Assembly: GCA_025464995.1 (NCBI GenBank)
Contig: JAODMO010000039.1
Span: forward strand, 20,674 to 84,673
Source: Microbacteriaceae bacterium
Lineage (GTDB): Bacteria; Actinomycetota; Actinomycetes; Actinomycetales; Microbacteriaceae
Length of the DNA: 64,000 nt
Reading direction: 5' to 3'
The notes under the pieces were generated by a model. It was not told where the DNA came from, did not search any database, and worked only from the letters and a program-made list of their open reading frames with translations. A program made the position numbers and the translations under genes. Positions 15,524 to 34,861 of the stretch are shown here, one piece after another (within the stretch, counting starts at the first letter, position 1; each line of letters begins with the position of its first letter).

Positions 15524-15907
15524 TCAGGCCGCGCGTGCGGTGAGCTGCGCGCGGAGAGGGAAGTCCTGGCCGTCGAGGATGACCTGGGCGCTCGCCCCCG
15601 TCGCCGCGTTCACGACGATCGGAGCGAGGAGGTTCATCGTCGTGCCACCCGCACCGGGGTTCGCGACGACGAGGACGAGCGCCTGCTCCGCCTCGTGCAC
15701 GTCGAGCGACTGGCAATCCTCATCCGAGATGATGGGGCTGTAGTCGGGAAGGTAGACGGCCGCGTCGAGGACGAAGAGGCGGATGCCCGCGTCGTCGGCA
15801 GACTCGAGTGCGTAGAGGCCGTCGGCGCCCTCGATGTCACGCAGTTCGAACGCCGTGTGCGGCGCGAGTCCGTGCGGCGGCGTCACGAACGTCAGTGTCG
15901 CGCTCAA
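15524..15907 (-). CDS. fliW: Flagellar assembly factor FliW
   Basis: 127-aa ORF SATLTFVTPPHGLAPHTAFELRDIEGADGLYALES... with FliW-like organisation; overlaps flgL stop. Confidence 0.85.
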   Translation of the reverse strand: MSATLTFVTPPHGLAPHTAFELRDIEGADGLYALESADDAGIRLFVLDAAVYLPDYSPIISDEDCQSLDVHEAEQALVLVVANPGAGGTTMNLLAPIVVNAATGASAQVILDGQDFPLRAQLTARAA

Positions 15908-18240: not shown

Positions 18241-18249
18241 GCTCGTGCC

Positions 18250-18735: not shown

Positions 18736-18817
18736 GACCGGTTGACCTCTCTGAGATGCTCGAGCGAAGAACCACTGGGGGGATCTGCCTGATGCGGGGG
18801 ATTCGCGTCCACCCCCA

Positions 18818-18844
18818 CTGTCGGCAGCGGTGAGGTGTCGGTTA
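18818..18844 (-). promoter_or_regulatory. FliA/sigma-28-type promoter for flgN-flgK-flgL-fliW
   Basis: Minus: TAAC-N15(cgacacctcaccgct)-GCCGACAG. Confidence 0.7.
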
Positions 18845-18892
18845 GGTGAATCGGAGGGAGATTTGAGGTTCTTCCGGTGGTGATTTCGAGCC

Positions 18893-18906
18893 GATTCCGC
18901 GGAATC
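18893..18906. promoter_or_regulatory. Perfect 14-bp palindrome GATTCCGCGGAATC in flgN/fliA divergent region
   Basis: Read directly from sequence. Confidence 0.55.
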
Positions 18907-19073
18907 CCGCGGAAGCGCACGAAACCTCAATGGGGGGCACCCCTTCGGGTGCGCCCCGCTTTGGGGCTGAGGGTTTGTTAGGTTCGCGGCGTGGCCTCCG
19001 CATAGAGTCGCGAATATCCGAACAATCCCCGCGTTGCACAACTCGCGAGGCTTCGGAGATACGTCCAGAACAG

Positions 19074-19949
19074 ATGCAGAGAGTCGCCGTCCAGAGCGCC
19101 CCGTGCATGCAACAAACCGCTGACGGGGGTCACGCTGTGGAACGAACAGAACGCAACGCACTGGTGGTGGAGAACCTTCCACTTGTCGGCTACCTCGTCT
19201 CGGAGGTGTGGGCCAAGGCCCGTCACCTTTCGCGCGATGACCTCGCGTCTGCCGCCGCTCTCGCCCTCGTCTCCTCCGCCGACGCCTTCCGTCCGGAACT
19301 CGGCGTCCCCTTCGGTGCCTTCGCCCGCCGCCGCATCATCGGCGCCTTCGCCGATGAGATGCGCGCCGGCGACTGGGCCACCCGCGGCGCGCGTCGTCGC
19401 ATCAAGGACACCCTCGCCGTGCAGGAGACGCTGACCGCCGCGATGGGCCGCAAGCCGAAGGTCGACGAGATCGCGTCTGCCCTCGGAGTCGACCGTGAGT
19501 CCGCCGCCGCCGGCATCGCCGACGCATCCCGCGTCGTCGTTGTTCTCGACGAGGCCGTCGCCGGTGCGCTCGTAGCCGAGTCGGCCCTGCCGGAGGAGAC
19601 GCTCCTCTCTGCCGAGCGCCTCGCATACCTGCACGCATCGGTCGACGCTCTCCCCGAGAAGATGCGCGCCGTCATCTCGGCGATCTACTTCGACGACAAG
19701 ACGGTCAAGGAGATCGCTGAGGAGTCGGGTACGACCCACTCCGCCGTCTCACAGTTGCGCTCGGAGGCCGTGCGCCTGCTGCGCGACGGCCTCGAGACCC
19801 ACTACTCCGACTCCATCGCGGAGTACACGCCGACCTCGCGCATCGCCCTCTCGAGCCGAAGCGCCTACCTGGCCCGCGTGGCCGAGCACGCGATGTCGAC
19901 GTCAGTGCGCGACCGCGGCGTCGTGCACACGGAAGCCGCCGCATCCTGA
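19074..19949 (+). CDS. fliA: RNA polymerase sigma factor for flagellar genes (FliA/sigma-28-like); exact start uncertain (19074, 19107 or GTG 19138)
   Basis: Sigma-70 family region 2 (LVSEVWAKARHLSRDDLASAAALALVSSADAFRPELGVPFGAFARRRIIGAFADEMR) and region 4 (LPEKMRAVISAIYFDDKTVKEIAEESGTTHSAVSQLRSEAVRLLR). Confidence 0.9.
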   Translation: MQRVAVQSAPCMQQTADGGHAVERTERNALVVENLPLVGYLVSEVWAKARHLSRDDLASAAALALVSSADAFRPELGVPFGAFARRRIIGAFADEMRAGDWATRGARRRIKDTLAVQETLTAAMGRKPKVDEIASALGVDRESAAAGIADASRVVVVLDEAVAGALVAESALPEETLLSAERLAYLHASVDALPEKMRAVISAIYFDDKTVKEIAEESGTTHSAVSQLRSEAVRLLRDGLETHYSDSIAEYTPTSRIALSSRSAYLARVAEHAMSTSVRDRGVVHTEAAAS

Positions 19950-19976
19950 TGCACTGAAAAAGCTTTGCTTGGTGCC

Positions 19977-20003
19977 TAACGCGATTCCGCGACCGGCCGA
20001 TAG
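19977..20003 (+). promoter_or_regulatory. FliA/sigma-28-type promoter for flagellin
   Basis: TAAC-N15(gcgattccgcgaccg)-GCCGATAG. Confidence 0.85.
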
Positions 20004-20013
20004 CTAGAGGTAT

Positions 20014-20056
20014 CGGCCCATGGATGGGCCGGTGAGGCCAAACCCAATCACGGAGG
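20014..20056 (+). promoter_or_regulatory. Candidate CsrA-binding leader of flagellin mRNA
   Basis: Hairpin CGGCCC-ATGGAT-GGGCCG (20014-20031) with GGA in the loop, plus ACGGAGG (20050-20056) overlapping the Shine-Dalgarno. Confidence 0.65.
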
Positions 20057-20064
20057 AAAACATC

Positions 20065-21207
20065 ATGGGTATGCAGATCAACACCAACGTTGCGGCGCTC
20101 AACTCGTACCGCAACCTGTCCAACACGCAGAACGACCTGTCGAAGTCGTTGGAGAAGCTCTCCAGCGGCCTCCGCATCAACCGGGCAGCGGACGATGCAG
20201 CCGGTCTGGCAATCTCCGAGGGCCTGCGTGCGCAGGTCGGCGGCCTGTCGGTTGCCTCGCGTAACGCACAGGACGGCATCTCGGTCATCCAGACCGCTGA
20301 AGGCGGACTGACCGAGGTCCACTCGATCCTCCAGCGTCTCCGCGACCTCGCAGTGCAGTCCGGTAACGACTCGAACAACTCGGAGTCCCGTGCGGCCATC
20401 ACGACGGAGGCCACGCAGCTGACCTCCGAGCTGAACCGTATCTCCGACGTCACCAACTTCAACGGCACGAAGCTCCTCGATGGCTCATCGCCCTCGATGT
20501 CCTTCCAGGTCGGCGCGGATGGTTCAGCCAGCAGCCGCATCGCGGTGAGCCTCACCGGTGCCGATGTCAAGGGTGTCGCTTCGGCGCTCACCGTTGGTGC
20601 AGCTGGTTCGCAGATCACGGTCGCAACGCCGACCGATGTTACCGGCGCACAGACGTTCACCGTCACGAAGGGCGGTGCTGCGACGGTGGTCACCACCGCG
20701 TCGCTTGGTGCTGCCGGCACCATGACGTCGACCGCCCAGGTCGCCGCAGCGCTCAACAAGGACGCCAGCTTCACGACCGACCTCGTTGCCACGGTCGACG
20801 CGTCGAACAAGCTCATCGTGTCGTCGAAGACCGGCGGAGTCGTCACGGCAGCCACAGCACCCGGCACGGGTCTCTCGGTCGGCGTCGCGGCCCCCGCCGC
20901 AGCGCTCGACTTCACCACCGCGGCAGGTTCTGCAGCAGCGATCACCAGGATCGATGCCCAGATCTCCAACGTGTCGAGCGCCCGCGCCACCCTCGGTGCC
21001 GTGCAGAACCGTTTCGAGTCCACGATCAACAGCCTCAACGTCTCCAAGGAGAACCTCGCCGCTGCGGAGTCGCGAATCCGCGACACCGACATGGCGTCGG
21101 AGATGGTCTCGTACACCCGTGCGAACATCCTCTCGCAGGCCGGTACCGCCATGCTCGCGCAGGCGAACCAGTCCAACCAGGGCGTTCTGCAGCTGCTCCG
21201 CGGCTAG
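20065..21207 (+). CDS. fliC: Flagellin
   Basis: MGMQINTNVAALNSYRNLSNTQNDLSKSLEKLSSGLRINRAADDAAGLAISEGLRAQ; C-terminal DTDMASEMVSYTRANILSQAGTAMLAQANQSNQGVLQLLRG; GGAGG Shine-Dalgarno at 20052. Confidence 0.98.
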   Translation: MGMQINTNVAALNSYRNLSNTQNDLSKSLEKLSSGLRINRAADDAAGLAISEGLRAQVGGLSVASRNAQDGISVIQTAEGGLTEVHSILQRLRDLAVQSGNDSNNSESRAAITTEATQLTSELNRISDVTNFNGTKLLDGSSPSMSFQVGADGSASSRIAVSLTGADVKGVASALTVGAAGSQITVATPTDVTGAQTFTVTKGGAATVVTTASLGAAGTMTSTAQVAAALNKDASFTTDLVATVDASNKLIVSSKTGGVVTAATAPGTGLSVGVAAPAAALDFTTAAGSAAAITRIDAQISNVSSARATLGAVQNRFESTINSLNVSKENLAAAESRIRDTDMASEMVSYTRANILSQAGTAMLAQANQSNQGVLQLLRG

Positions 21208-21223
21208 TCAGATCGGATAGATC

Positions 21224-21283
21224 AACGCCCGGCGGTTCTCGAGAGGGAACTGGACGTCTCGACCGAGCGCCGCCGGGCGTTTT
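21224..21283 (+). terminator. Terminator after flagellin gene
   Basis: 12-bp stem AACGCCCGGCGG / CCGCCGGGCGTT followed by TT. Confidence 0.75.
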
Positions 21284-21331
21284 CCGCACCACAGCATCGA
21301 ACCAGCATCATCCACCCCAAGGAGAACCGAC

Positions 21332-22711
21332 ATGGCTGTAGGGCTCGACGGTCTAGCGAGTGGGCTCCCCACAGCCGATCTCATCGCCTCGCTCATGGCC
21401 ATCGAGGCGGTTCCACAGAATCTACTCAAGAACTCCGCGATCGCCGCGAACACGTCGGTCGCCGCGCTCCGGGCACTGAACGGCCAGATCGCCGCCCTCG
21501 CCACCCTCGCAGGCACCACGGCCAAGCCGGGGTCACTCGACTTCTACTCGGCGACGAGCAGCTCGACCAAGGTCACGGCGACAGCGACCGCTGGCGCCGA
21601 GAACAGCACGCTCGATATCGTCGTCGGCAAACTCGCGCAGTCGCAGGTGGGCGTCACTGCCGCGATGACGCAGTGGTCGACGCCCGCCGTGCTCACCATC
21701 GTCAGGGCCGACGGAACGACCAAGGAGATCACCGCAGACTCGACGTCGCTCGACGACGTGGTCGCGGCGGTCAATGCCGCGGGAACGGGGGTGACCGCGA
21801 CCAAGGTCGCCTCGGGCGCGGATGCGAACGGCGTCTCGCAATTCCGCCTGCAATTCAGCGGCAAGGACACCGGCGCGAGCTCGGCCTTCACCGTGTACTC
21901 CGGATCGGCCGCCGACGTCTCGGCCGGCAGCGCCACCGACGTCCTCACCCAGCCCGGGGCCGCGGTGATCCGCACCGCGCAAGACGCGTCGGTCACCCTC
22001 TGGGCGGGCACGCCCGCCGCCCAGGTGCTCACGTCGGCGACCAACACGTTCACCGACCTGCTGCCGGGAGTCTCGGTCACCGTCTCCGGCGCGTCCGTCG
22101 ACCCGGTCACCATCTCCGTCGCTCGCGACACGACCGCCTCGAGCGCGGCCGCGGCGGCCGTCGTCAACGCGCTGAACGGAGTGCTCGCCTACATCAGCAC
22201 CCGCTCGGTGAGCACCGCGAGCACCGACGCCGCAGGCAAGCCGATCCTCTCCGGAGGAGTGTTCACGGGCGACAACATGACGCGCGTCGTCAGCCAGAAG
22301 CTCCTCGACGCGGCTTCCGCACCCGTCGCCGGCCACTCGCCGTCGGAGTATGGCATCTCCATCACCAAGACGGGGGCGATGGAGTTCAGCGCCCAGAAGT
22401 TCGCCGCGGCGTATGAGAAAGACCCGGTCACGGTACAAGCGGCTGTCTCCGAGATCGCGTCGCGCATCGCGTCCGCGGCGTCCAGCGCGTCGGACAAGAC
22501 GACCGGCACCGTCTCGCAGAAGATCACCGGCACGCAGTCGACCATCACGAATCTCAACGATCAGGTTGCGAGGTGGGACGACCGCCTTGCGACCCGCAAG
22601 ACCAATCTCCAGCGCATGTATTCGGCATTCGAAGTGCGCATGAGCAACATGAACGCGCAAATGACCTGGCTCACCTCCCAGGTGGACTCGCTGCAAGCGC
22701 AGAAGGACTGA
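21332..22711 (+). CDS. fliD: Flagellar filament cap protein FliD
   Basis: MAVGLDGLASGLPTADLIASLMAIE N-terminus and coiled-coil C-terminus MYSAFEVRMSNMNAQMTWLTSQVDSLQAQ. Confidence 0.95.
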   Translation: MAVGLDGLASGLPTADLIASLMAIEAVPQNLLKNSAIAANTSVAALRALNGQIAALATLAGTTAKPGSLDFYSATSSSTKVTATATAGAENSTLDIVVGKLAQSQVGVTAAMTQWSTPAVLTIVRADGTTKEITADSTSLDDVVAAVNAAGTGVTATKVASGADANGVSQFRLQFSGKDTGASSAFTVYSGSAADVSAGSATDVLTQPGAAVIRTAQDASVTLWAGTPAAQVLTSATNTFTDLLPGVSVTVSGASVDPVTISVARDTTASSAAAAAVVNALNGVLAYISTRSVSTASTDAAGKPILSGGVFTGDNMTRVVSQKLLDAASAPVAGHSPSEYGISITKTGAMEFSAQKFAAAYEKDPVTVQAAVSEIASRIASAASSASDKTTGTVSQKITGTQSTITNLNDQVARWDDRLATRKTNLQRMYSAFEVRMSNMNAQMTWLTSQVDSLQAQKD

Positions 22712-22713
22712 CG

Positions 22714-23154
22714 ATGACGATGTATGCCAACACCAAGCAGCAGCGCGACCGCTATGCGGCCGACGCCATAGCATCTGCATCGCCCGTGCGCCTGCTCACG
22801 ATGCTCTACGACCGGCTCCTTCTCGACCTCGCTCGCGCCGAAGAGGCGCACGCGACCAAGAGCTGGTCGGTCGCGTCCGCGAACCTGCTGCATGCCCAAG
22901 ACATCGTCGCCGAGCTCCAGTCGTCGCTCAAGGTCGACGCGTGGGACGGCGGCGAGCGCCTGATGGCCCTTTACGTGTACATCTCCAGCGCCCTCGTGAC
23001 CGCCAACGTGCAGCGCGACACCGCGCTCATCGGCGAGTGCATCACGCTGCTCGAGCCGCTGCGCGAGGCGTGGCACGAGGCGGCCGGCCAGATCGCCGCG
23101 AGCCAGCCGAGCGCACCGGTGTCGTCGTCGAGCGGGATGCTCGGCGTTGCCTGA
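22714..23154 (+). CDS. fliS: Flagellar export chaperone FliS
   Basis: ATG 22714; YAADAIASASPVRLLTMLYDRLLLDLARAE is FliS-like; directly downstream of fliD. Confidence 0.9.
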   Translation: MTMYANTKQQRDRYAADAIASASPVRLLTMLYDRLLLDLARAEEAHATKSWSVASANLLHAQDIVAELQSSLKVDAWDGGERLMALYVYISSALVTANVQRDTALIGECITLLEPLREAWHEAAGQIAASQPSAPVSSSSGMLGVA

Positions 23155-23458
23155 GCTCTCACCGCGCTACGACAGCTGGGTAGAGGTCATGGCCGCGCTC
23201 GAGGCCGCCACCCAGTCGGCGACACGCCTCGACACGGTGCGGGATGCGGCCGCCGACGCCCCCTGGACGGCGCCGACGCACCTCGGGCCGATCCCCGGCG
23301 AGTTGCGCGAACGCGCCGACCGCCTGCTCGTTGACCAGCGCGCCTCCATCCGCAACCTCGAAGACCTGCACCGTGAGACGGGCCGGCACCTGGCCGCGGT
23401 GCGTGCCGTGCCGTCGCCTCGTGACGGCCAGTCGGTCTATCTCGACGTCTCCGGCTGA
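23147..23458 (+). CDS. Small protein in FliT-like position downstream of fliS
   Basis: 103-aa ORF with TTG start overlapping the fliS stop; length and position suggest a FliT-like chaperone but no clear motif. Confidence 0.5.
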   Translation: MPELSPRYDSWVEVMAALEAATQSATRLDTVRDAAADAPWTAPTHLGPIPGELRERADRLLVDQRASIRNLEDLHRETGRHLAAVRAVPSPRDGQSVYLDVSG

Positions 23459-23479
23459 AAGAAAACCTCCACTCACGCC

Positions 23480-23506
23480 TAACGTTTGGCGCTCGTCGTC
23501 CGATAG
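23480..23506 (+). promoter_or_regulatory. FliA/sigma-28-type promoter for flgB operon
   Basis: TAAC-N15(gtttggcgctcgtcg)-TCCGATAG. Confidence 0.8.
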
Positions 23507-23584
23507 GTAGTCACGAGAGCACGGATTGCTCACCATTAGGCCACGGACCGGCCGCTTCGTTTCCTGCTACGAGACGGAACAACC

Positions 23585-23926
23585 GTGCTTGAATCTGTCA
23601 CCTCCGCGGCGCTCAGCAGCGCTCTGGACGGCCTCGCGCTGCGCCAGCGCGTGATCGCGAGCAACATCGCGAACGTCAACACCCCCGGATACGCGTCACA
23701 GCGCGTCCTCTTCGAGGACGCGCTCGCCGAGTCGGTCGAGCGGGGCGACGGCAGGGTCGAGGCGACGACGGCCCGATCGCTCGAGCCCACGCGTCTCGAC
23801 GGCAACAACGTGAACCTCGACACCGAGACGCTCTCCAACGTCGACACCGTGCTGCGCTTCCAATTCGCCAGTCAGGCCATCGGCGGGCAGTTCAGCGCGC
23901 TCCGCACCGCGATGAGAACCAACTGA
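23585..23926 (+). CDS. flgB: Flagellar proximal rod protein FlgB
   Basis: SALDGLALRQRVIASNIANVNTPGYASQRVLFEDAL rod signature. Confidence 0.93.
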   Translation: MLESVTSAALSSALDGLALRQRVIASNIANVNTPGYASQRVLFEDALAESVERGDGRVEATTARSLEPTRLDGNNVNLDTETLSNVDTVLRFQFASQAIGGQFSALRTAMRTN

Positions 23927-24318
23927 TGACATTCGACGCCATCGGCATCGCCGGCACCGGCCTCACACTGCACCGCAAGTGGCTCGACGCGGTCTCCGAC
24001 AACCTCGCCAACATCAACACGGTGAAGCCGACCGACGGCGAGGCGTTCCGCGCCCGCTATGTCGTCGCCCAGGAGGGCGAGGGCACGACGGGTGTCTATG
24101 TCGCCGGCGCCGCCTTCGGCGACGCAGCGGGTCGCCTCGTGTACGAGCCGAACCATCCGCTCGCCGACGCCGAGGGCTACGTGCGCTACCCCGACATCGA
24201 CCTGGCCTCGCAGATGGGCCAGCTCATCATGGCCCAGCGCGGCTACCAGGCCAACGCGGCCGTCGTCGACCGCGCCAAAGAGACCTACCAGGCAGCCCTC
24301 CAGATCGGACGCAACTGA
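23926..24318 (+). CDS. flgC: Flagellar rod protein FlgC
   Basis: IGIAGTGLTLHRKWLDAVSDNLANINTVK... and YPDIDLASQMGQLIMAQRGYQANAAVVDRAKETYQAALQIGRN. Confidence 0.93.
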   Translation: MTFDAIGIAGTGLTLHRKWLDAVSDNLANINTVKPTDGEAFRARYVVAQEGEGTTGVYVAGAAFGDAAGRLVYEPNHPLADAEGYVRYPDIDLASQMGQLIMAQRGYQANAAVVDRAKETYQAALQIGRN

Positions 24319-24623
24319 TGAACCCCCTCTCCGTCTCGTCGGTGCAGGCCACGACACCGACGACGTACCTCTCGAACGTCGGTGGGGTCCAGGCCACCGA
24401 CGGCTCGAGATTCGCCGCCTCGCTCACCGGCGCCGTCGACGGACTGCAGCAGCTGCAGAACTCGTCGAACGATCTCGCCGTCAAGGCGGTCACGGGCAAC
24501 CTCGAAGACATCCACAACGCCACTCTCGCCTCGACGCGCGCCTCTGTCACCCTCGAACTCGTCGCGGCCGTGCGTAACAAGGGCCTCGACGCGTTCACCG
24601 AGATCATGCGGATGCAGGCCTGA
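24318..24623 (+). CDS. fliE: Flagellar hook-basal body complex protein FliE
   Basis: 101-aa frame MNPLSVSSVQAT...NSSNDLAVKAVTGNLEDIHNATLASTRASVTLELVAAVRNKGLDAFTEIMRMQA. Confidence 0.9.
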   Translation: MNPLSVSSVQATTPTTYLSNVGGVQATDGSRFAASLTGAVDGLQQLQNSSNDLAVKAVTGNLEDIHNATLASTRASVTLELVAAVRNKGLDAFTEIMRMQA

Positions 24624-26221
24624 TGCCGCGCCAGGTCACCTCGGCGTTCCGCCAGTTCGCGAACGCCGTGCGCGAGTTCACGATCGCGCAGCGCACCGTC
24701 GCCATCATCGGCATCGCCGTGCTCGTGCTCGGGGTCATCGCCCTCGGCATGTGGATCACGAAGCCCTCGTACACGCCGCTCTTCTCCGGCCTCACCGGCG
24801 CCGACGCCAACACGCTCGTCGAGCAGCTCCGTTCCGACGGTGTGCCGTACGAGCTCAGCAACGGCGGCGCCACGATCATGGTGCCCGAGGCGAACGTCTA
24901 CGACGAGCGCCTCAAGGCGGCCGCAGCCGGCCTGCCCTCCTCGAGCACGGGCGGCTACTCGCTGCTCGACTCGATGGGCGTCACCGCCTCCGAGTTTCAG
25001 CAGGACGTCACCTACAAGCGCGCACTCGAGGGCGAACTCGCCAAGACGATCTCCGCGCTCACCGGTGTCAAGACCGCGTCGGTGCGCCTCGCGATCCCCG
25101 AGGAGACCGTCTTCGTCTCCGAGAAGCGCGACCCGACCGCTTCCGTGTTCGTCGAGACGCAGAGCGGGGTGACGCTGTCATCCGACCAGGTGCAGGCGAT
25201 CGTTCACCTTACGAGCGCGTCGATCGACGGCATGGCGCCGTCGGATGTCGCCGTCGTCGACTCCAAGGGCACCGTGCTCTCCGCCGTGGGCGAGGGTGCC
25301 GTCGGTGGCGCCGACCAGCAGCTCTCCGACTACGAGACCGCCATCCGCGCGTCCGTGCAGACCATGCTCGACAAGGTCGTCGGTGCGGGCAACGCGACCG
25401 TCGCCGTCGCCGCCGACATGAGCAAGGAATCGGGCTCGCGCACGGAGGAGACGTTCGAGTCGCCCGACGGACCGCTCGCGATGAGCGAGTCGGCGACCGT
25501 CGAGGGCACAGCCACCCCCGGCCAGACGGCCGCGGGAGTGCTCGGCCCCGACAACATCGCGGTTCCCGGCGCCGCTGCGGCCGGTGCGGCCGGATCGAGC
25601 TCTTCGACCCTGACCCGCAACAACGCGGTCAACAAGGTCACCGAGTCGACGACCATCCCCGCGGGAGTGCTCAACCGCAAGACGATCTCGGTCGCGATCA
25701 ACCAGGGCGCGGCCAAGGGCCTCAACGTCGCCGACGTCACCGCACTCGTGTCGTCCGCCGCGGGCATCGACGCCGCCCGCGGCGACGTCGTGACGGTCGA
25801 GGTGGTTCCGTTCAACGGTGCCGGCGCGACGCAGGCGGCCGAGGCGCTCGCGGCCGCGGAAGCCGACGCCAACGCCGAGCGTTTCGCCGACCTCATCCGC
25901 ACCGCCGTCATCGCTCTCGCGATCGCCATCCCGATCATCGTCGCCCTCGCCGTCTTCGCGTCGAAGTCGAAGCGCCGCCGCCAGGAGATCGAGGAGGCGG
26001 ACGACCTCGCCGACCTGCGCTCGATCCTGAACGACACGCAGCCGGCCGCCATCACGACGCCGCTCCGCGCCGCCATCCCGACCGTACCGACCTCGCCGCT
26101 GCTCATCGAATCGAACGCCGTCGACCGCACGCGTGCCGAGATCGACGCGCTCGCGGCGCAGGACCCGCAGCGCGCCGCCGAGTTCCTCCGCGGCCTCATG
26201 GATGACAGGCGGCGCGCATGA
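24623..26221 (+). CDS. fliF: Flagellar M-ring protein FliF
   Basis: YTPLFSGLTGADANTLVEQLRSDGVPYELSNGGATIMVPEANVYDERLKAAAAGLPSSS is a FliF signature; two TM segments. Confidence 0.96.
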   Translation: MPRQVTSAFRQFANAVREFTIAQRTVAIIGIAVLVLGVIALGMWITKPSYTPLFSGLTGADANTLVEQLRSDGVPYELSNGGATIMVPEANVYDERLKAAAAGLPSSSTGGYSLLDSMGVTASEFQQDVTYKRALEGELAKTISALTGVKTASVRLAIPEETVFVSEKRDPTASVFVETQSGVTLSSDQVQAIVHLTSASIDGMAPSDVAVVDSKGTVLSAVGEGAVGGADQQLSDYETAIRASVQTMLDKVVGAGNATVAVAADMSKESGSRTEETFESPDGPLAMSESATVEGTATPGQTAAGVLGPDNIAVPGAAAAGAAGSSSSTLTRNNAVNKVTESTTIPAGVLNRKTISVAINQGAAKGLNVADVTALVSSAAGIDAARGDVVTVEVVPFNGAGATQAAEALAAAEADANAERFADLIRTAVIALAIAIPIIVALAVFASKSKRRRQEIEEADDLADLRSILNDTQPAAITTPLRAAIPTVPTSPLLIESNAVDRTRAEIDALAAQDPQRAAEFLRGLMDDRRRA

Positions 26222-27237
26222 CTGAGGCGACGCTCGCCCTGAGCGGCACGCAGAAGGTCGCCGTCGTGCTCATGAGCATGGACCAGGGAGCCGCCGCCTC
26301 CGTCATGAAGCAGTTCAGCGAGGCCGAGGCCGAGGAGATCGCGAGCGAGATCATCAAGCTGCGCCGCGTCGAGTCGAAGGTCGCCGACGAGGTCATGAAC
26401 GAGTACCACGACCTCACGGTCAAGGGTGGATGGAGCTCACGCGGCGGCAAGGACTTCGCGTCGAGCCTGCTCGAGGCGTCGTTCGGCGCCGAACGCGCCG
26501 GCAACCTGATGAACCGCGTCGCATCCAACATGGCCGGCAAGGCCTTCGAGTTCCTCGACTCGGTCGAACACGGCCAGGTCATCACGCTGCTCGACGGCGA
26601 ACTGCCGCAGACCATCGCCCTCGTGCTGGCACACATGCGCCCGGAGCACGCGTCGCCCGTGCTCGCGGGGCTCGACGTCGGCCTGCGCACCGAGGTCGCC
26701 CAGTGCATCGGTACCATGGGCACCGCCATCCCCGAGGCCGTGCGCGTCGTCGCCGACACCCTCAAGCTGCGCGCGGGTGCCGTCAGCTCCGTCGGCGAGA
26801 GTGTCGAGACCGTGGGCGGAGTGCAGCCGCTCGTCGAGATCATCAACAGGTCGGATGTCTCGACCGAGCGTGCGCTCCTCGAGCAGCTCGACGAGATCGA
26901 CCCCGAGCTCGCCGAAGAGGTGCGCTCGCGCATGCTCACCTTCGCCGACATCGTCAAACTCGAGCGTCGCGACGTGCAGCAGGTGCTGCGCGGCATCGAC
27001 ACCGGCGTGCTGGCGATCGCGATGAAGGGTTCGACCGAGGCCGTCATCGAGGTCATCAAGACCAACCTCTCCGAGCGCAACCGCGAGATCCTGGAGGACG
27101 AGGCGAAGCTGCTCGGTCCGGTGCGCGCGTCGCAGGTCGAGGAGGCGCGTGCCGAGGTCGTCCGCGCCATCCGCGACCTCGAGGCGAAGGGGAGCATCAC
27201 CGTGCAGCGCGGCGACGAGGACGAATATGTCTACTGA
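26218..27237 (+). CDS. fliG: Flagellar motor switch protein FliG
   Basis: LSGTQKVAVVLMSMDQGAAASVMKQFSEAEAEEIASEI; C-terminal TFADIVKLERRDVQQVLRGIDTGVLAIAMKGS. Confidence 0.96.
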   Translation: MTEATLALSGTQKVAVVLMSMDQGAAASVMKQFSEAEAEEIASEIIKLRRVESKVADEVMNEYHDLTVKGGWSSRGGKDFASSLLEASFGAERAGNLMNRVASNMAGKAFEFLDSVEHGQVITLLDGELPQTIALVLAHMRPEHASPVLAGLDVGLRTEVAQCIGTMGTAIPEAVRVVADTLKLRAGAVSSVGESVETVGGVQPLVEIINRSDVSTERALLEQLDEIDPELAEEVRSRMLTFADIVKLERRDVQQVLRGIDTGVLAIAMKGSTEAVIEVIKTNLSERNREILEDEAKLLGPVRASQVEEARAEVVRAIRDLEAKGSITVQRGDEDEYVY

Positions 27238-27835
27238 CGCCGAATTCCCGACCATGCGGTACCCGACGCTGCGCAGCAGCGCACAGGGCGATCGTGACGC
27301 CCGCGCCCGCGCCGGCGGTCACGCGGCCGGGTACACCGCCGGGCTCCGCGCCGCCGAGGCGGATGTCGCGGCTCGCATCGCCGCGCTCGAGGCCGAAAGA
27401 GCCGCCGAGTCGGTGCACGCCTCGGCGCGCGTCGACCGCGCCGTCCTCCTCCTCGCCGCAGCGGCCAGGGCGCTCGACGCACGAACCGTGCCCGTGCTCG
27501 CGGGGGCGCAGGCCACCATCGAGGACGCTGCGCTGCAACTCGCCGAGGCGGTCGTCGCCTCCGAGTTCGGCGACTCCGGGTCGGTGGCGAGGTCGGCGAT
27601 GCACCGGGCCCTGTCCGGTGTCGACACGGCCATCGTGCACACCGTCCGCATGAACCCCGTCGACCTCGAGACCCTCGAATCCCTCGACCTCACGCCCGTC
27701 GGCGTCGACTTCACCGCCGACCCCTCGCTCTCTCGCGGCGACGCCGTCACGGAGTTCCCCGACGGCTACCTCGACGCGCGCGTCTCCACCGCGCTCGCCC
27801 GTGCCCGTGCGGCGCTCGAGGGGGCCCGCCCGTGA
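27227..27835 (+). CDS. fliH: Flagellar assembly protein FliH-like
   Basis: ATG 27227 frame MSTDAEFPTMRYPTLRSSAQGDRDARARAGGHAAGYTAGLRAAEADVAARIAALEAER, between fliG and fliI. Confidence 0.8.
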   Translation: MSTDAEFPTMRYPTLRSSAQGDRDARARAGGHAAGYTAGLRAAEADVAARIAALEAERAAESVHASARVDRAVLLLAAAARALDARTVPVLAGAQATIEDAALQLAEAVVASEFGDSGSVARSAMHRALSGVDTAIVHTVRMNPVDLETLESLDLTPVGVDFTADPSLSRGDAVTEFPDGYLDARVSTALARARAALEGARP

Positions 27836-29154
27836 CCCAGACGCTCCTGCCATCGCGAGGCTTCCGCGCGGCCGTCGACGCCGCACGCCCTCAGCGGGTC
27901 GGCGTCGTCTCGTCGATCGTCGGTCTGGGCATCGAGATCAGCGGCCTGGACTGCGCGATCGGCGACCTCGTGACGGTCGGCGACGACGCCTCCGTCGTGT
28001 CGGAGGTCATCGCCTCGTCGCGCGGCGCGCTGCGCTGCATGCCCCTGGGCCGCCTGACCGGTGTCAGCGCGGGTGCGCCAGCCCGTGCACACGTATCGCC
28101 CATGCTCGTGCCCACCGGCAACGGGCTGTTCGGTCGGGTCATCGACGGGCTCGGTCGGCCGATCGACGGCAAGGGCCCGCTCCTCGCCGACTCCTACGTG
28201 TCCATCGACAACGAGAGCCCGTCCGCGATGGACCGCGCTCGCATCGACACCCCGTTGCAGCTGGGGGTGCGCGTGCTCGACACCCTCACGACGGTCGGCC
28301 GCGGCCAGCGCATGGGGCTCTTCGCCGGTTCCGGCGTTGGCAAGTCCTCCCTTCTCTCCATGATCGCGCGCGGCACGGACGCCGAGGTGTCGGTCATCGC
28401 GCTCGTCGGTGAGCGCGGTCGCGAGGTGCGTGAGTTCCTCGAGGACGACCTCGGCCCCGAGGGTCTCGCCCGGTCGATCGTCGTCGTGTCGACATCCGAC
28501 GAGCCGGCCATGATGCGCATGCGGGCCGCCTTCGTGGCCACGCGCATCGCCGAGTCCTTCCGCGACCGCGGCGCCCACGTCATGCTCATGATGGACTCGC
28601 TCACCCGCGTCGCCATGGCGCAGCGCGAGATCGGGCTCTCCGTCGGCGAACCGCCGGCCACGCGCGGCTATCCGCCGTCGACCTTCTCCGTGCTCGCTCG
28701 ACTGCTCGAGCGAGCGGGTACGAGCGAGTGCGGCTCCGTCACCGGCATCTACACGGTGCTCGTCGACGGCGACGACCACAACGAACCGATCGCCGACTCG
28801 GCCCGTTCGATCCTCGACGGCCACGTGGTGCTCGACCGCAAGCTCGCCATTTCGGGGCACTTCCCCTCGGTCGACACCCTCGGTTCGATCTCGAGAGTCG
28901 CCTCACGGGTCAATACGGGCGAGCACACCGAGGTCGCGGCCCAGCTGCGCAAGGTGCTCGCCGCCCGCAAATCGGCGCAAGACCTGCTCGACATCGGCGC
29001 CTACCAGCCCGGCGCCAATCGTCTCGTCGACGCCGCGGTGACCTTCGAGGCCGAGATCAACGACTTCCTCCAGCAGCGGATGACCGACCAGTCGAGTGTC
29101 GACGACGCGTGGGATCGGCTCACCCGGCTCACCCGCGCGTTCGGGGTGAACTGA
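27832..29154 (+). CDS. fliI: Flagellum-specific ATPase FliI
   Basis: P-loop GLFAGSGVGKSSLLSMIARG; VMLMMDSLTRVAMAQREIGLSVGEPPATRGYPPSTFSVLARLLERAG. Confidence 0.97.
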   Translation: MTQTLLPSRGFRAAVDAARPQRVGVVSSIVGLGIEISGLDCAIGDLVTVGDDASVVSEVIASSRGALRCMPLGRLTGVSAGAPARAHVSPMLVPTGNGLFGRVIDGLGRPIDGKGPLLADSYVSIDNESPSAMDRARIDTPLQLGVRVLDTLTTVGRGQRMGLFAGSGVGKSSLLSMIARGTDAEVSVIALVGERGREVREFLEDDLGPEGLARSIVVVSTSDEPAMMRMRAAFVATRIAESFRDRGAHVMLMMDSLTRVAMAQREIGLSVGEPPATRGYPPSTFSVLARLLERAGTSECGSVTGIYTVLVDGDDHNEPIADSARSILDGHVVLDRKLAISGHFPSVDTLGSISRVASRVNTGEHTEVAAQLRKVLAARKSAQDLLDIGAYQPGANRLVDAAVTFEAEINDFLQQRMTDQSSVDDAWDRLTRLTRAFGVN

Positions 29155-29588
29155 TGGCGCGCGCGTTCCGGCTCGCCGGCCTGCTGCGGCTTCGGCAGGT
29201 GCAGCAGGAGCAGGCGGCGAGTGACCTCGCGTCGGCCAACGCCCGCGCTCGCGCAAATGCGCTTCACCAGAACCGCACGCGTGCCGCCCTCGGCGGCATT
29301 TCTGCCGAACCCACGAGCAGCAACGTGCTCTATGCGATCGCGGCGGCGCGTTCGTCGTCACGGAGCATGCTCGCCGAGCTCGAGGCCGTCGACTTCCGCA
29401 CTCAGGCGCAGGTGGATTCGGCGGCAGCGGCCTATGCCGAGGCGCGCACCCGCTCGCTCGGGCTCGAGAAGCTCGAGGCGAGGCACATCGAGACAGAAGG
29501 CGGCGCGGACGTGGCCGCGCAGCAGGCCGCCATCGACGAGATCTCGTCGACGACGATCCACCGCACCCGGAACGGGGACACACCGTGA
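29154..29588 (+). CDS. fliJ: FliJ-like flagellar protein
   Basis: 145-codon frame MARAFRLAGLLRLRQVQQEQAASDLASANARARANAL; helical, between fliI and fliK. Confidence 0.75.
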   Translation: MARAFRLAGLLRLRQVQQEQAASDLASANARARANALHQNRTRAALGGISAEPTSSNVLYAIAAARSSSRSMLAELEAVDFRTQAQVDSAAAAYAEARTRSLGLEKLEARHIETEGGADVAAQQAAIDEISSTTIHRTRNGDTP

Positions 29589-31093
29589 CCATGATCGGAC
29601 CATTCGCCCCGGCGGCGACCGCCCCGGCGGCGTCGTCTGCGAGCGGCACCCAGTCGGGAGCCGCTGATTTCGGCGCGACGATGCTCGGCGCGCTCGCGTC
29701 GGCAACCGCCGCGGCGAGTGACCAGGCCGTGCCAGGGCAGGCCGTGACCGGCCAGGCTGTGACAGACCGGTCGGCGACTCCGCGGTCGGCAACTCCGACG
29801 TCGGCGATCCCGGCCACGTCGACCGAACCCGCGGCGGCCGCCGCCTCCGCGCTGCACATCGCCGGCACGCCGAGGCCCGTGCACGTGGCCGTCGGTGCCG
29901 CAGCGACGCCGCCCGCAGACACCGGCACGCCGGCGGACACCGGCACCGCCAGGCCCGTCGATGCGGACGCGGACGTCTCAGCCGATGCGTCCGCGGACGC
30001 CCCCACGTTCGCCCCGGGTGTGCCCGCCCTTCCGCTCCCGGGTGCGGCGTCGCCCGCGTTGCCCGTCTCCCTTCCCCTCGCTCCGGTCGTCGACGAGGCG
30101 GCCGCCCCCGACACCGCGGTCACGACACCGGACGCCAGCGCGGCGATCGAGGCGGCTCCCGCCGCTCTCCCGTCGGCAATGACCTCGACAGCGGCGGTTC
30201 CGGCGGGGTTGCGCCCCGTCGAGACCCGGATGCCGACGGCCGCCGCGAGCGCCACTCCCGCAATGGACTCCGCCGCCTCGCCGCCGCAGGCGGCACCCAA
30301 GCCCACCGGGTCGGGTGCCGTCGTCGCCACCGCGTTGCCCTCAGTACCCGCCTCCGCAGCACCCGTCTCCGCAGCACCCGTCTCCGCAGCGCCGGCCTCC
30401 GGCGCGCCCGCCTCTGCGGCGCCCGCCGCTCCCACGCCCGCCGCTCCCACGCGTGCTACGGCCGCCGGCGCTGCATCCGGCCTGGCGACGACGATGGCCG
30501 AACCGGCGGTCATTGCGGAAAGCAGCGGTGCCGACACCGTCGCACCCGTCGCCCTCGTGGCTTCGACCGCGGCGGACGCGCCCGGCGACCTGCCGCCCAC
30601 GCTAGCCCCCACCTTCGCCCCGACGCAGATCACGCCCGTCGCGGTATCCGTACCCGTCGCCGCGTCGCCGGTCGCCGCCCCGCCGACGCCGTTCGCGACC
30701 CAGGTCGCGACGCCGATCTTCACGCTCGCCGCCGCCGGCCCGGGGGAGCACGTCATGACCATAGACATCACCCCCGACAACCTCGGACCGATCACCGTCC
30801 GTGCCCACGTCGGCGCGGAGGGCGTGCGGGTGGAACTGTTCGCACCGACCGACCTCGCCCGAGACGCGATCCGCGCGATCCTGCCCGACATCCGTCGCGA
30901 CATGACCGGCGCAGGCCTCGGCACGAACCTCGACCTGTCGTCACAGAACCAGCCGGCCGATCGCGGCCAGGGCGACGGCCAGCCCCGCCGTGACACCAGC
31001 GCCGAACAGCGCGCAGCCGTCGAGACGGCAGCCGCGGCCGAGCGCCCGTGGCTGCTCAGCGACCCGTCGACGACGATCGACGTGATGGCATGA
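29585..31093 (+). CDS. fliK: Flagellar hook-length control protein FliK
   Basis: Ala/Pro/Thr-rich long N-terminus and C-terminal Flg_hook-like domain GEHVMTIDITPDNLGPITVRAHVGAEGVRVELFAPTDLARDAIRAILPDIRRDM. Confidence 0.88.
   Translation: MTMIGPFAPAATAPAASSASGTQSGAADFGATMLGALASATAAASDQAVPGQAVTGQAVTDRSATPRSATPTSAIPATSTEPAAAAASALHIAGTPRPVHVAVGAAATPPADTGTPADTGTARPVDADADVSADASADAPTFAPGVPALPLPGAASPALPVSLPLAPVVDEAAAPDTAVTTPDASAAIEAAPAALPSAMTSTAAVPAGLRPVETRMPTAAASATPAMDSAASPPQAAPKPTGSGAVVATALPSVPASAAPVSAAPVSAAPASGAPASAAPAAPTPAAPTRATAAGAASGLATTMAEPAVIAESSGADTVAPVALVASTAADAPGDLPPTLAPTFAPTQITPVAVSVPVAASPVAAPPTPFATQVATPIFTLAAAGPGEHVMTIDITPDNLGPITVRAHVGAEGVRVELFAPTDLARDAIRAILPDIRRDMTGAGLGTNLDLSSQNQPADRGQGDGQPRRDTSAEQRAAVETAAAAERPWLLSDPSTTIDVMA
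30350..30470 (+). repeat. 15-bp in-frame tandem repeat tract in fliK
   Basis: GCACCCGTCTCCGCA repeated, then degenerate copies; encodes SAAPVSAAPVSAAPASGAPASAAPAAPTPAAPT. Confidence 0.65.
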
Positions 31094-31145
31094 ACGCCCG
31101 GATGACCCCCACGACTGCGACGCCGACCACAAGGAGCACCCGAGC

Positions 31146-31595
31146 ATGAGCATCGACACCATCACAGGCACCGTGAGCTCCCAGGCGGCCGCCGCCGCGG
31201 CTGCCGCAGCGCAGGCCGAGGCCGCGCGCGCGCCGAAGAAGACGATGGACTCCGAGGTCTTCATGTCGCTGCTCGTGTCGCAGCTGCGCAACCAAGACCC
31301 GAGCTCGCCCATGGACACCAACGAGATGATCTCGCAGACGACGCAGCTCGCGATGATGGAGAAGATGACGGAGCTCACCGCGACGAGCACGGAGAACTTC
31401 TCCCTCCAGATGCGCATCGCCGCGGCCGCGATCGTCGGCAAAGAGGTCAGCTACCTGGATGCCACCACCGGACTCCCCGTCACGGGCACCGCCGGCAGCG
31501 TCTCGTTCACCGGGGCGGTGCCGACCGTGTCGATCGGCGGCAAGGACATACCGCTCGATCTCGTCGCCGGCATCACCACCACCAAGACCTCCTAA
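31146..31595 (+). CDS. flgD: Flagellar hook assembly protein FlgD
   Basis: TMDSEVFMSLLVSQLRNQDPSSPMDTNEMISQTTQLAMMEKM signature. Confidence 0.95.
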   Translation: MSIDTITGTVSSQAAAAAAAAAQAEAARAPKKTMDSEVFMSLLVSQLRNQDPSSPMDTNEMISQTTQLAMMEKMTELTATSTENFSLQMRIAAAAIVGKEVSYLDATTGLPVTGTAGSVSFTGAVPTVSIGGKDIPLDLVAGITTTKTS

Positions 31596-31634
31596 CCGCT
31601 TCTCAACCTCCGTCACCAACCGAAAGGCTCACCC

Positions 31635-32813
31635 ATGCTTCGCTCCCTCTATGCAGGTATCTCCGGTCTTCGCTCGCACCAGACCATGCTCGACGTCACC
31701 GGCAACAACATCGCCAACGTCAACACCACCGCGTTCAAGTCGTCGTCCACCCAGTTCCAGGACACTCTGTCGCAGCTGACCCAGGGTGCGAGCGGACCGC
31801 AGACCGGCATCGGCGGAACCAACCCGGCGCAGGTCGGCCTCGGTGTTCTCGTCGCGGGCATCTCCACGAACTTCGCCCAGGGCTCGACGCAGGCCACCGG
31901 CAAGGCGAGCGACCTGATGATCTCCGGCGACGGCTTCTTCGTCACCCGCCAGGGCAACCAGACCTCGTACACGCGGGCCGGCTCCTTCGACTTCGACGCC
32001 GACGGCCGGCTCACAAGCCCAGACGGCTCGCTCGTGCAGGGCTGGTCTGCGGTCGACGGTGTCGTCGCCGACGGTGGTCTCGTCAGCGACATCAAGCTCC
32101 CCCTGAACGCCATCTCCCCCGGTGTCGCCACGACCAGTGCGACAATGGGTGGCAACCTCCCCTCCGATGCGGCGACGGGCTCTGTGCTGGTTCGCGACAT
32201 CGAGGTCTTCGACGCGACCGGCGATTCCCGCAGCCTCTCGCTCACCTTCACCAAGACCGCGGCTGGCTGGAATGTCGGCGGGGTCGACTCCGCGGCGCCC
32301 GGCACCACCGTCACCAGCTCCCTCACCTTCGCCAACGGTGCGCAGACGAGCGCCGGGCTCATGACCGTGAACGGTGTCGCGCTCGACCTGAGCAAGGTCA
32401 GTGGCTTCGCCTCCCTGACGAGCGTCGCGACGACGGCGAAGGACGGCCGAGCGGCCGGCAAGCTCGAGTCGTACACCCTCTCGAAGGACGGCACGCTCAT
32501 CGGCTCCTTCAGCAACGGCGCCTCGCAGGCTCTCGCCCGCGTCGTGCTCGCGACCTTCACGAACCCGAGCGGCCTCGAGAAGGCCGGCTCATCGTCGTAC
32601 CGCGCCACGTTCAACTCGGGCGACGTGCAGATCGGAGCGCCCGGTGCCGACGGTTTCGGGTCGCTCACGAGCGGCGCCCTCGAGATGTCGAACGTCGACC
32701 TCTCGCAGGAGTTCACCAACCTGATCGTCGCGCAGCGCGGTTTCCAGGCAAACGCGCGAATCATCACCACGTCTGACGAGGTCCTCCAGGAGCTCACCAA
32801 CCTCAAGCGCTAG
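31635..32813 (+). CDS. flgE: Flagellar hook protein FlgE (FlgE/F/G superfamily)
   Basis: MLRSLYAGISGLRSHQTMLDVTGNNIANVNTTAFKSSSTQFQDTL and SNVDLSQEFTNLIVAQRGFQANARIITTSDEVLQELTNLKR. Confidence 0.95.
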   Translation: MLRSLYAGISGLRSHQTMLDVTGNNIANVNTTAFKSSSTQFQDTLSQLTQGASGPQTGIGGTNPAQVGLGVLVAGISTNFAQGSTQATGKASDLMISGDGFFVTRQGNQTSYTRAGSFDFDADGRLTSPDGSLVQGWSAVDGVVADGGLVSDIKLPLNAISPGVATTSATMGGNLPSDAATGSVLVRDIEVFDATGDSRSLSLTFTKTAAGWNVGGVDSAAPGTTVTSSLTFANGAQTSAGLMTVNGVALDLSKVSGFASLTSVATTAKDGRAAGKLESYTLSKDGTLIGSFSNGASQALARVVLATFTNPSGLEKAGSSSYRATFNSGDVQIGAPGADGFGSLTSGALEMSNVDLSQEFTNLIVAQRGFQANARIITTSDEVLQELTNLKR

Positions 32814-32844
32814 TCGCCGCGATCGTCATCGGCCGTCGTTTGCC

Positions 32845-32871
32845 TTACACGGGGCAGGCGGCGGCCGATAG
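32845..32871 (+). promoter_or_regulatory. FliA/sigma-28-type promoter for flbD-motA-motB
   Basis: TTAC-N15(acggggcaggcggcg)-GCCGATAG. Confidence 0.8.
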
Positions 32872-32919
32872 TGATGTCTAAGCGACCCAGGAAGGGTCGC
32901 CTCTACTGGGGATGGATCC

Positions 32920-33243
32920 ATGATCGTTGTCACGCGGCTTAACAACAGCCAGTTTGCGATCAATCCCGACCTCATCGAGCGCATCCACTCGAACCCCGAC
33001 ACGACCCTCGTCATGGTGGACGGTGCGAAGTACATCATCACCGAGTCGATGGACGAGGCGATCGAGAAGATCGCCACCTACCGCGCACGCGTGATCGCGC
33101 TCACGCACGAGATCTCGGAGTCGAGACTGACTCCGGGAGCCCGTGCACTCGGCTTGGTCAGCTCCATCGACCACGCCGGGCACAACGACGACGACAATGA
33201 CGAGGACGAAGGCGTTACCTCGATGGGCCCGAGGAAAATTTGA
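32920..33243 (+). CDS. flbD: FlbD-family flagellar protein
   Basis: MIVVTRLNNSQFAINPDLIERIHSNPDTTLVMVDGAKYIITESMDEAIEKI. Confidence 0.9.
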   Translation: MIVVTRLNNSQFAINPDLIERIHSNPDTTLVMVDGAKYIITESMDEAIEKIATYRARVIALTHEISESRLTPGARALGLVSSIDHAGHNDDDNDEDEGVTSMGPRKI

Positions 33244-34007
33244 TGGATCCCGCAACCATAATCGGGCTACTCGTAGCCTTCGGCGCACTCTTCGCGATGA
33301 TCACCCTCGAGGGGTCGAGCATCACGGCGATCCTGCTGCCGGCGCCCATCATCCTCGTCTTCGGTGCGACGATCGCCGTCGGCATCGCCGGCGCGACCAT
33401 CAAGGACGCGATCTCCGCCTTCAAGGCGCTGCCGAGTGCGTTCATGGGTAAGACGTCGAAGCCGCAGAACACCATCGACCTGCTCGTCTCGCTCGCAGAG
33501 AAGGCGCGCACCGACGGGCTCCTCTCGCTCGAGCAGGAGGCGGAGGGCGTGGATGACCCGTTCCTCAAGGGCGCGCTGCAGAACGTCGCCGACGGCACCG
33601 ACGGCGAGGAGCTTCGCATCCTCCTCGAGGACGAGCTCGCCACGAAGGCGAAATCGCAACGCAACGCGGCCAAGTACTTCACGACGATGGGCGGATACGC
33701 CCCCACCGTCGGCATCATCGGCACCGTCGTCTCGCTCACCCACGTGCTCGAGAACCTGTCGACGCCCGACCACCTCGGCCCGATGATCGCCGCCGCCTTC
33801 GTCGCCACGCTGTGGGGGCTGCTCTCCGCCAACTTCATCTGGCTGCCCATCGGCTCGCGTCTCCGTCGTCTCTCCGACCTCGACGTCGACCGAATGACCC
33901 TCACCATGGAGGGCGTGCTCGCGATCCAGTCGGGCAGCCAGCCGCGACTGCTCGGCGAACGACTGCGCGCGATGGTGCCCGCCGACCAGCTGGCGAAGGC
34001 GGCATGA
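33243..34007 (+). CDS. motA: Flagellar motor stator protein MotA
   Basis: DPATIIGLLVAFGALFAMITLEGSS...YAPTVGIIGTVVSLTHVLENLSTPDHLGPMIAAAFVATLWGLLSAN. Confidence 0.95.
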   Translation: MDPATIIGLLVAFGALFAMITLEGSSITAILLPAPIILVFGATIAVGIAGATIKDAISAFKALPSAFMGKTSKPQNTIDLLVSLAEKARTDGLLSLEQEAEGVDDPFLKGALQNVADGTDGEELRILLEDELATKAKSQRNAAKYFTTMGGYAPTVGIIGTVVSLTHVLENLSTPDHLGPMIAAAFVATLWGLLSANFIWLPIGSRLRRLSDLDVDRMTLTMEGVLAIQSGSQPRLLGERLRAMVPADQLAKAA

Positions 34008-34861
34008 GCGCGCCGCGCAAGCGCGGCAGCGGGCTCGAGGAGGAGCACGTAGAACACGTCGACGAACGCTGGATGGCCTCCTACATGGACATGGTCACCG
34101 TGCTCATGTGCATGTTCATCGTGCTCTTCGCCATGTCCACCGTCGACGCGGACAAGTTCGAGCAGCTGCGCAACTCACTCGCGACCGGATTCGGCCAGAT
34201 GGAGGCCGGGTCCGTCGACACCGCGAAGGGCGTCGTCGTGCCGGCCGACCAGGTCGATGACACCGGCGGGCTCGTCGATCTCCCCGTGACCCAGCTCGAT
34301 CTCGCGAAGGCTGAGGTCGACAAGCTCGAGGCGCTCAAGGAGCAGATGCGGGTGAACCTCGAGGCCAGAGGACTCGCGCAGACCGTCCAATTCGAGATCG
34401 ACGAGCGGGGTCTCACCATCCGCCTCGTCGGCTCGGAGACATTCTTCGGCGCCAATAGCGTCGATCTCTCGGCCACGGCGTTCGCCGTACTCGACGCCGT
34501 ATCTCCCGTGCTCGCGAGCACGCACTACGAGATCGCCGTTGAAGGCCACGCAGATGTGCGCCCGCCCGGTGCGCCGTATGCGACGAACTGGGAGCTCTCC
34601 TCGGGAAGAGCGACTCAGGTGCTCCGTCGCATCGTCGAGTCGGGCGGAGTCGCCCAGGAGCGCGTCGGGGCGGTCGGATTCGGGTCCGCCCGCCCCATCG
34701 CCAACGGATCGAGCGAGGCAGACCTGGCCGCGAACCGCCGTGTCGATGTCGTCGTCATCTCCGACCAGCCGGAGTCGGTCCGTGCGCTCATCCCCTCCGT
34801 GCTCGAGAACTACGCGACGATCCCGGCCGATGCCTTACCGGGAGCCGACGCCGGCCGATAG
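34004..34861 (+). CDS. motB: Flagellar motor stator protein MotB
   Basis: ATG 34004; WMASYMDMVTVLMCMFIVLFAMSTVD plus OmpA-like peptidoglycan-binding domain IAVEGHADVRPPGAPYATNWELSSGRATQVLR. Confidence 0.95.
   Translation: MSAPRKRGSGLEEEHVEHVDERWMASYMDMVTVLMCMFIVLFAMSTVDADKFEQLRNSLATGFGQMEAGSVDTAKGVVVPADQVDDTGGLVDLPVTQLDLAKAEVDKLEALKEQMRVNLEARGLAQTVQFEIDERGLTIRLVGSETFFGANSVDLSATAFAVLDAVSPVLASTHYEIAVEGHADVRPPGAPYATNWELSSGRATQVLRRIVESGGVAQERVGAVGFGSARPIANGSSEADLAANRRVDVVVISDQPESVRALIPSVLENYATIPADALPGADAGR
34835..34861 (+). promoter_or_regulatory. FliA/sigma-28-type promoter inside motB 3' end for fliM operon
   Basis: TTAC-N15(cgggagccgacgccg)-GCCGATAG. Confidence 0.75.

Follow-up and report, generated by a model that had tools for sequence, protein, structure and literature searches.

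A probable two-step flagellar regulon in a Microbacteriaceae bacterium, with one FliA-type promoter before early and late operons and a predicted CsrA/FliW gate on flagellin

We analyzed the flagellar gene cluster on a 64,000-nucleotide stretch of DNA (hereafter the window) of a Microbacteriaceae bacterium (assembly GCA_025464995.1, contig JAODMO010000039.1, positions 20,674 to 84,673). Flagellar regulation is classically described as a cascade of tiers gated by FlgM. In the window, the operons for the rod, MS-ring, export apparatus, switch, motor, hook-filament junction, and flagellin appear to share one promoter type, that of the flagellar sigma factor FliA (sigma-28), and this reading is well supported by sequence comparison. 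We consider it highly probable that they form a compact two-step regulon: fliA is expressed first, five FliA promoters then act together, and flagellin is gated by CsrA and FliW.

In the assembly (2.87 Mb, 63 contigs), the motif CCTWAC-N15-KCCGAYAG has exactly five matches, each at the head of a flagellar operon, and a reversed control gave no match in the same assembly. This genome-wide scan had been set beforehand as a check on the first-pass annotation, which proposed five FliA-type promoters with exact 15-bp spacing. All five were read back; the starts it quoted fall at TAAC or TTAC, and the full motif begins 2-3 bases upstream. P-flgN (CCTAAC-N15-GCCGACAG, 18818-18846, minus strand) heads flgN-flgK-flgL-fliW. 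On the plus strand, P-fliC (CCTAAC-N15-GCCGATAG, 19975-20003) heads fliC, P-flgB (CCTAAC-N15-TCCGATAG, 23478-23506) heads flgB to flgE, P-flbD (CCTTAC-N15-GCCGATAG, 32843-32871) heads flbD-motA-motB, and P-fliM (CCTTAC-N15-GCCGATAG, 34833-34861) heads the unit from fliM to flhA and csrA. All five are exact matches, and the earlier operon assignments hold. The sigma-28/FliA -10 box (GCCGATA) is represented by GCCGATAG, TCCGATAG, or GCCGACAG at each site, and the -35 box, expected near CTAAA at a spacing of 15-16 bp, is CTWAC, 1-2 positions off TAAA, with a gap of 15 bases at all five. The earlier description of a near-sigma-28 -10 box with fitting spacing was thus borne out. By chance, 0.16 matches would be expected per genome and 0.0015 in the flagellar cluster. 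When one mismatch to CCTWAC-N15-GCCGATAG was allowed, the genome-wide scan returned the same five sites and none extra; two mismatches added 4 unrelated places, and with up to three the total fell below the reversed control. The motB stop codon is the TAG within the -10 box of P-fliM (34854-34861); therefore, the fliM start must be downstream of 34861, where ATG 34888 is available. In most relatives, the P-fliM site sits at approximately this position.

Conservation was assessed in 80 named loci, with a site counted when at least 12 of 13 positions matched. The site was present before flgB in 70 of 79 loci, flbD in 42 of 45, fliM in 34 of 34, fliC in 58 of 62, and flgN in 52 of 53 (reversed control 0). 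Conservation in related genomes, which the first-pass annotation had named as a check, was thus found. Its position is nearly fixed relative to the called start (approximately -75 for flgB, -46 for flbD, 0 to +2 for fliM, and -15 for fliC). Only one of 528 internal gene starts (flgC, fliF, fliG, fliI, flgD, flgE, motA, fliN, and fliP) carried it, and it was the sole fixed-position conserved element found before all operons in these loci. The named loci closest to the window by FliG belong to Microbacteriaceae (a metagenome-assembled genome at 82%, Homoserinimonas, Cryobacterium, Salinibacterium, and Leifsonia), followed by Arthrobacter-type loci. Dozens of genomes of these two kinds share the sites and their placement.

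Eleven genomes, including that of the window, contain exact matches, and 32 of the 34 matches lie within the flagellar cluster; seven relatives lacking FlhA contained no exact matches. Together with the lack of a site at fliA (see below), these positions indicate that the regulon extends little beyond the flagellar cluster and that fliA stands above it. In other families of the order, CTCA-N16-GCCGAT occupies the same places in 81 of 97 heads (flgB, flbD, fliM, and fliC; reversed control 3). In other orders of the class, CTCA-N16-GCCGA precedes flgB in 11 of 11 loci, flbD in 11 of 11, and fliM in 11 of 12; this result is weaker because the looser score has a background of approximately 10-50% before internal genes. 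Judging from these CTCA-type sites, the flat layout looks ancestral to the group and not special to the genome of the window.

The cluster also contains fliA (19137-19949, plus strand, 270 aa, Pfam sigma70 r2/r4), located between flgN and fliC and not mentioned in the first-pass inventory. The open reading frame (ORF) extends from 18930 to 19949; the start conserved in relatives is GTG 19137, not ATG 18930. FliA has regions 2 and 4 (Pfam r2 and r4) and the DWxxR signature of group-3 sigma factors (GDWATRGARR), and its closest solved chains include WhiG and FliA. The FliA/WhiG model had two hits in this genome: FliA, and a protein that is the primary sigma factor by ranking and profile coverage. 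FliA scored 119.8 bits against TIGR02479, under the curated cutoff of 189.6, and cluster-borne flagellar sigma factors across the order score approximately 120-180 bits on the FliA/WhiG model. By these profile scores, FliA of the window is a divergent relative, not a canonical FliA/WhiG member. It also carries a tail of approximately 50 residues past region 4 (19794-19949), which the alignment to solved FliA structures does not cover. The tail motif RRRxxY[FYL]xx[IVL] matches 31 of 34 sequences, the copy in the window (SRSAYLARV) being degenerate, and the tail is possibly a contact for a partner or an anti-sigma factor.

None of 43 named loci had a FliA-type site before fliA at the threshold of at least 12 of 13 positions, which rules out FliA autoregulation in the clade of the window. 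Therefore, a first tier persists above the flat one. A weak candidate -10 element of a non-FliA fliA promoter, TAGAGT (19003-19008, plus strand), is alike in L180, L181, L188, and L202; it is common to few relatives only, and no -35 element was found for it. A sigma-70 consensus scan of 18200-24000 for a fliA promoter, based on an E. coli-type consensus, returned nothing. In the flgN-fliA interval (18770-18940 in the window, and its counterparts in relatives), ACTGGGGG was present in 14 of 49 sequences versus 2 of 430 background stretches, and TACCCCC in 18 of 49 versus 4 of 430. These G-run boxes are perhaps the sites of a regulator that starts fliA. In G041 and G113 (FliA at L170 and L167, respectively), fliA is located away from the flagellar cluster, and the cluster promoters still keep the code.

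The promoter sequence and the sigma factor change together across lineages. Two positions of the region 4.2 recognition helix are H/A in 11 of 11 CTWAC genomes and [EQR]/R in 21 of 21 CTCA genomes. The third base of the -35 box is A or T in 46 of 46 CTWAC-group sites and C in 70 of 81 CTCA-group sites, and the fifth base is C in 46 of 46 of the former and any base in the latter. In an FlhA tree, a branch with full support separates off the CTCA rows, corresponding to one change, and the CTWAC rows are nested and derived. A. missouriensis (Actinoplanes missouriensis) reportedly has the consensus CTCA-N15-17-GCCGAA, as Jang et al. are said to have described in 2016.

A third code was found in the family. 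G069, which sits on a long branch within the CTWAC group of the FlhA tree, has no CTWAC site and carries GGTTAC-N14-GTC[GC]CGAT[AG] before flgB, flbD, fliC, and flgN. The 30-base pattern GGTTAC-N14-GTCSCGATRG occurs in 20 of 149 genomes of its genus, 1-6 times each, and the control gave 0 matches in all 149. On the 3-kb loci examined (L288-L317), all 30 of 30 matches head flagellar genes (flgB 6, flbD 8, flgN 5, upstream of fliP 9, and at fliH 2). In the sigma factor encoded upstream of fliC in these genomes, the region 2.4 DWxxR is lost and replaced by DPAG in 16 of 16, and region 4.2 reads SH[AP]Y[VI]SK[LM]R in 15 of 16. A second FliA-like sigma factor (E <= 1e-30) is present in 13 of the 20 genomes; at least six genomes lack it and keep the promoters. 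Therefore, the sigma factor upstream of fliC is, from this distribution, the likely cognate of the GGTTAC code. The second factor (L318-L330), whose gene lies across the flagellar cluster from the first, is mostly canonical (DWAPR and SHAAVSQQR).

We think it likely that the dedicated sigma factor and its whole regulon switched code together in two steps, from CTCA..GCCGAT in most of the class to CTWAC..GCCGAYAG in the clade of the window, and then to GGTTAC-N14-GTCGCGATAG in one genus nested within it. On the tree, these steps count as two events, and each was observed at those heads that were examined. We attach a comparable likelihood to the last step having involved the change from DWxxR to DPAG, a recast region 4.2 (SHAYVSKLR), and a switch of the boxes at all flagellar operons examined. 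Because FliA appears to be dedicated to approximately five promoters, the sigma factor and its promoters may be free to shift specificity together. The proposal of the first-pass annotation that early and late genes are under the same sigma-type promoter as flagellin is therefore upheld by the shared conserved sites, the single candidate sigma factor, and the co-change of promoter and sigma factor.

FlgM (PF04316) was not detected in any of 48 flagellated genomes (0/28 and 0/20) by a search that was positive in E. coli, B. subtilis, and T. maritima; the small ORF at 23147-23458, between fliS and flgB, considered as a hidden FlgM, matched no family, even at E=10. CsrA was found in 28 of 28 genomes, and fliW and csrA are the last genes of FliA-type operons in the window. 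The leader of fliC contains a hairpin with AUGGAU in its loop (20012-20033, plus strand), the predicted CsrA site 1, and ACGGAGG at the Shine-Dalgarno sequence (20050-20056, plus strand), the predicted site 2. The loop, A[C/U]GGA[U/C/A], lies approximately 45 bases before the start codon. ANGGAN is at this place in 101 of 101 flagellin leaders, and in 88 of them the stem is perfect over at least 4 pairs. When the leaders were anchored on the motif regardless of the stem, pairing and compensatory changes exceeded all 2000 shuffles (49 compensatory cells versus a mean of 14). The hairpin is rare before most other flagellar genes, with exceptions at flgB (12/127), flgE (8/122), and flbD. An Rfam search of the flagellin leader found no family. 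ANGGAN in a hairpin loop is a known CsrA/RsmE ligand (PMC7652899). In B. subtilis, CsrA blocks hag translation via two such sites and FliW relieves the block; FlgM and CsrA act in parallel there, with CsrA dominant (PMC6529632). Given the leader hairpin, the GGA at the Shine-Dalgarno sequence, and the membership of csrA and fliW in this regulon, an assembly checkpoint at the level of translation is predicted, and we infer that this gate on flagellin is the main checkpoint under flat transcription. The flat FliA-driven hierarchy of the first-pass annotation thus stands for the shared promoter and needs amending at both ends, by the fliA tier above it and the CsrA-type double site in the flagellin leader. 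Since the double site is conserved and the regulon includes csrA and fliW, assembly is not to be taken as ungated just because transcription is flat.

We propose that some signal first switches on fliA, through a promoter of its own that is not of the FliA type. FliA-RNA polymerase would then fire at once the five promoters observed, which cover the rod, MS-ring, switch, export, motor, hook, and filament genes as well as fliW and csrA. FliA would not be held back until hook completion by any detectable FlgM. CsrA is predicted to block flagellin translation at the loop hairpin and the Shine-Dalgarno sequence of the fliC leader, and the export of flagellin would free FliW to sequester CsrA, as in Bacillus subtilis.

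Several points weigh against this two-step model. The relatives share ancestry, and their counts cannot be read as independent events. There may be a FlgM analogue that lacks sequence similarity. In the flagellin leader, 13 of 101 sequences have no perfect 4-bp stem, and the leader of the window alone does not fold unusually stably (z -0.85). The ANGGAN hairpin is also present in 27 of 94 flbD leaders and is thus not wholly confined to flagellin; the flbD leader is possibly a second CsrA target. CsrA/FliW control of flagellin is itself predicted by analogy with B. subtilis.

A rival explanation that we regard as unlikely, and that fares best among those considered, is dual control, in which the FliA sites are real and the flgB, flbD, and fliM operons also have sigma-A promoters, giving basal early expression and a hidden hierarchy. 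There is a precedent in B. subtilis, in which the fla/che operon is driven by a sigma-A promoter. The sigma-A promoters of GC-rich actinobacteria are weakly conserved and poorly predictable at this GC content, which also counts against the two-step model; they would be missed, and the scan described above covered just 18200-24000 with an E. coli-type consensus. However, the FliA site is the only fixed-position conserved element found before all operons, and it has changed along with the sigma factor in each of the three lineages, which would hardly be needed if it were accessory. It is very improbable that the sites serve another regulator, such as a WhiG-like sigma factor or a DNA-binding activator. 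CCTWAC is unlike the textbook TAAA and FliA scores under the FliA_WhiG cutoff, but the genome has no second FliA/WhiG-family sigma factor, the two-box geometry and GCCGATA fit sigma-28, and changes in the boxes are matched by changes in the sigma recognition helices. Chance matches in a GC-rich genome to a short, degenerate motif spotted by eye are effectively ruled out by five observed sites against the expectation given above, all in the cluster and at conserved positions, and by the mismatch scans.

Operon contents were assigned by Pfam and NCBIfam family searches of the window proteins, with fliE placed by position only and fliP by position and length. On the minus strand are the chaperone gene flgN (18250-18735, start read from the sequence), flgK (16813-18240), flgL (15904-16809), and fliW (15524-15907), which encodes the CsrA antagonist and ends the operon. 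On the plus strand, fliC (20065-21207) has its true start at ATG 20065, ATG 20020 being the CsrA-type loop. It is followed by the cap gene fliD (21332-22711), the flagellin chaperone gene fliS (22573-23154 as called, with the real start downstream), the rod genes flgB and flgC (23585-24318), fliF and fliG (24623-27237), fliH and fliI (27149-29154), and fliK, flgD, and flgE (29585-32813). Further downstream are flbD, motA, and motB (32920-34861), fliM, fliN, and fliO (34861-36998), and the segment 36959-42046 with fliP, fliQ, fliR (38102-38860), flhB (38866-39993), and flhA (39995-42046); csrA (42888-43184) is the last gene of the fliM unit. A FliR-FlhB fusion (ORF 38125-39993) was ruled out because the first 250 residues of this ORF are read in the wrong frame; fliR and flhB are separate. 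The ORF at 42021-42878, between flhA and csrA, has only a weak FlhF N-terminal match (E 6e-4). Elsewhere in the window, 2111-5362 encodes a protein of 1083 aa that has laminin-G-like and PKD domains; sugar-transferase genes lie a few kb away.

The enteric three-tier FlhDC/FliA/FlgM cascade also has a FliA-type promoter before flagellin and motor genes; it differs from the present cluster, in which no FlgM was detected and early genes are also under a FliA-type promoter. The first-pass annotation regarded this layout as unusual by comparison with enteric bacteria, a view that did not survive. A review (PMC8306008) states that Actinoplanes missouriensis has no transcriptional hierarchy and that all flagellar genes are transcribed together (Jang et al. 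2016, J Bacteriol 198:2219); it calls the post-transcriptional level in Actinoplanes unknown. Therefore, enteric bacteria are the wrong yardstick. WhiG-like flagellar sigmas direct flagellar genes (PMC8325347). A. missouriensis and the present cluster both use a FliA/WhiG-type sigma factor, transcription in A. missouriensis is flat and without a checkpoint, and one promoter type precedes early and late operons here. In A. missouriensis, the flat pattern was reported for zoospores in sporangium formation, and the species reportedly has three FliA-family sigma factors, whereas the present genome has one, with CTWAC-N15-GCCGAYAG. The motility island of Kineococcus radiotolerans similarly contains fliA and csrA, no flgM, and the GGA site at the flagellin Shine-Dalgarno sequence; the promoters and the upstream hairpin are not described in that report, which found flgM missing from all flagellated actinobacteria sequenced by 2008 (PMC2587704). 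The flagellin leader resembles the CsrA-FliW-Hag system of B. subtilis, with two GGA sites, one at the Shine-Dalgarno sequence, and with fliW and csrA present (PMC6529632 and PMC7652899). However, B. subtilis has FlgM and a sigma-A-driven fla/che operon, whereas FlgM is undetected here and the basal-body genes have the flagellin-type promoter; moreover, fliW and csrA are not neighbors here, one being at each end of the cluster.

The flat layout is therefore normal for swimming actinobacteria, not new in kind, and less surprising than was first claimed. The regulon-wide, stepwise co-change of sigma factor and promoters and the CsrA element of the flagellin leader are the stronger, added findings. 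As a group, flagellated Actinomycetes would use one sigma factor for all structural genes, lack a detectable FlgM, and gate flagellin, as predicted, at translation, and the conserved leader hairpin makes the post-transcriptional level directly testable. If true, the code changes represent a series, made by nature, in which sigma factor and promoters were re-specified away from a sigma-28 code that is near-universal elsewhere, and the three lineage-specific codes with their matching sigma changes are a natural experiment on how the specificity of a sigma factor and its regulon may change.

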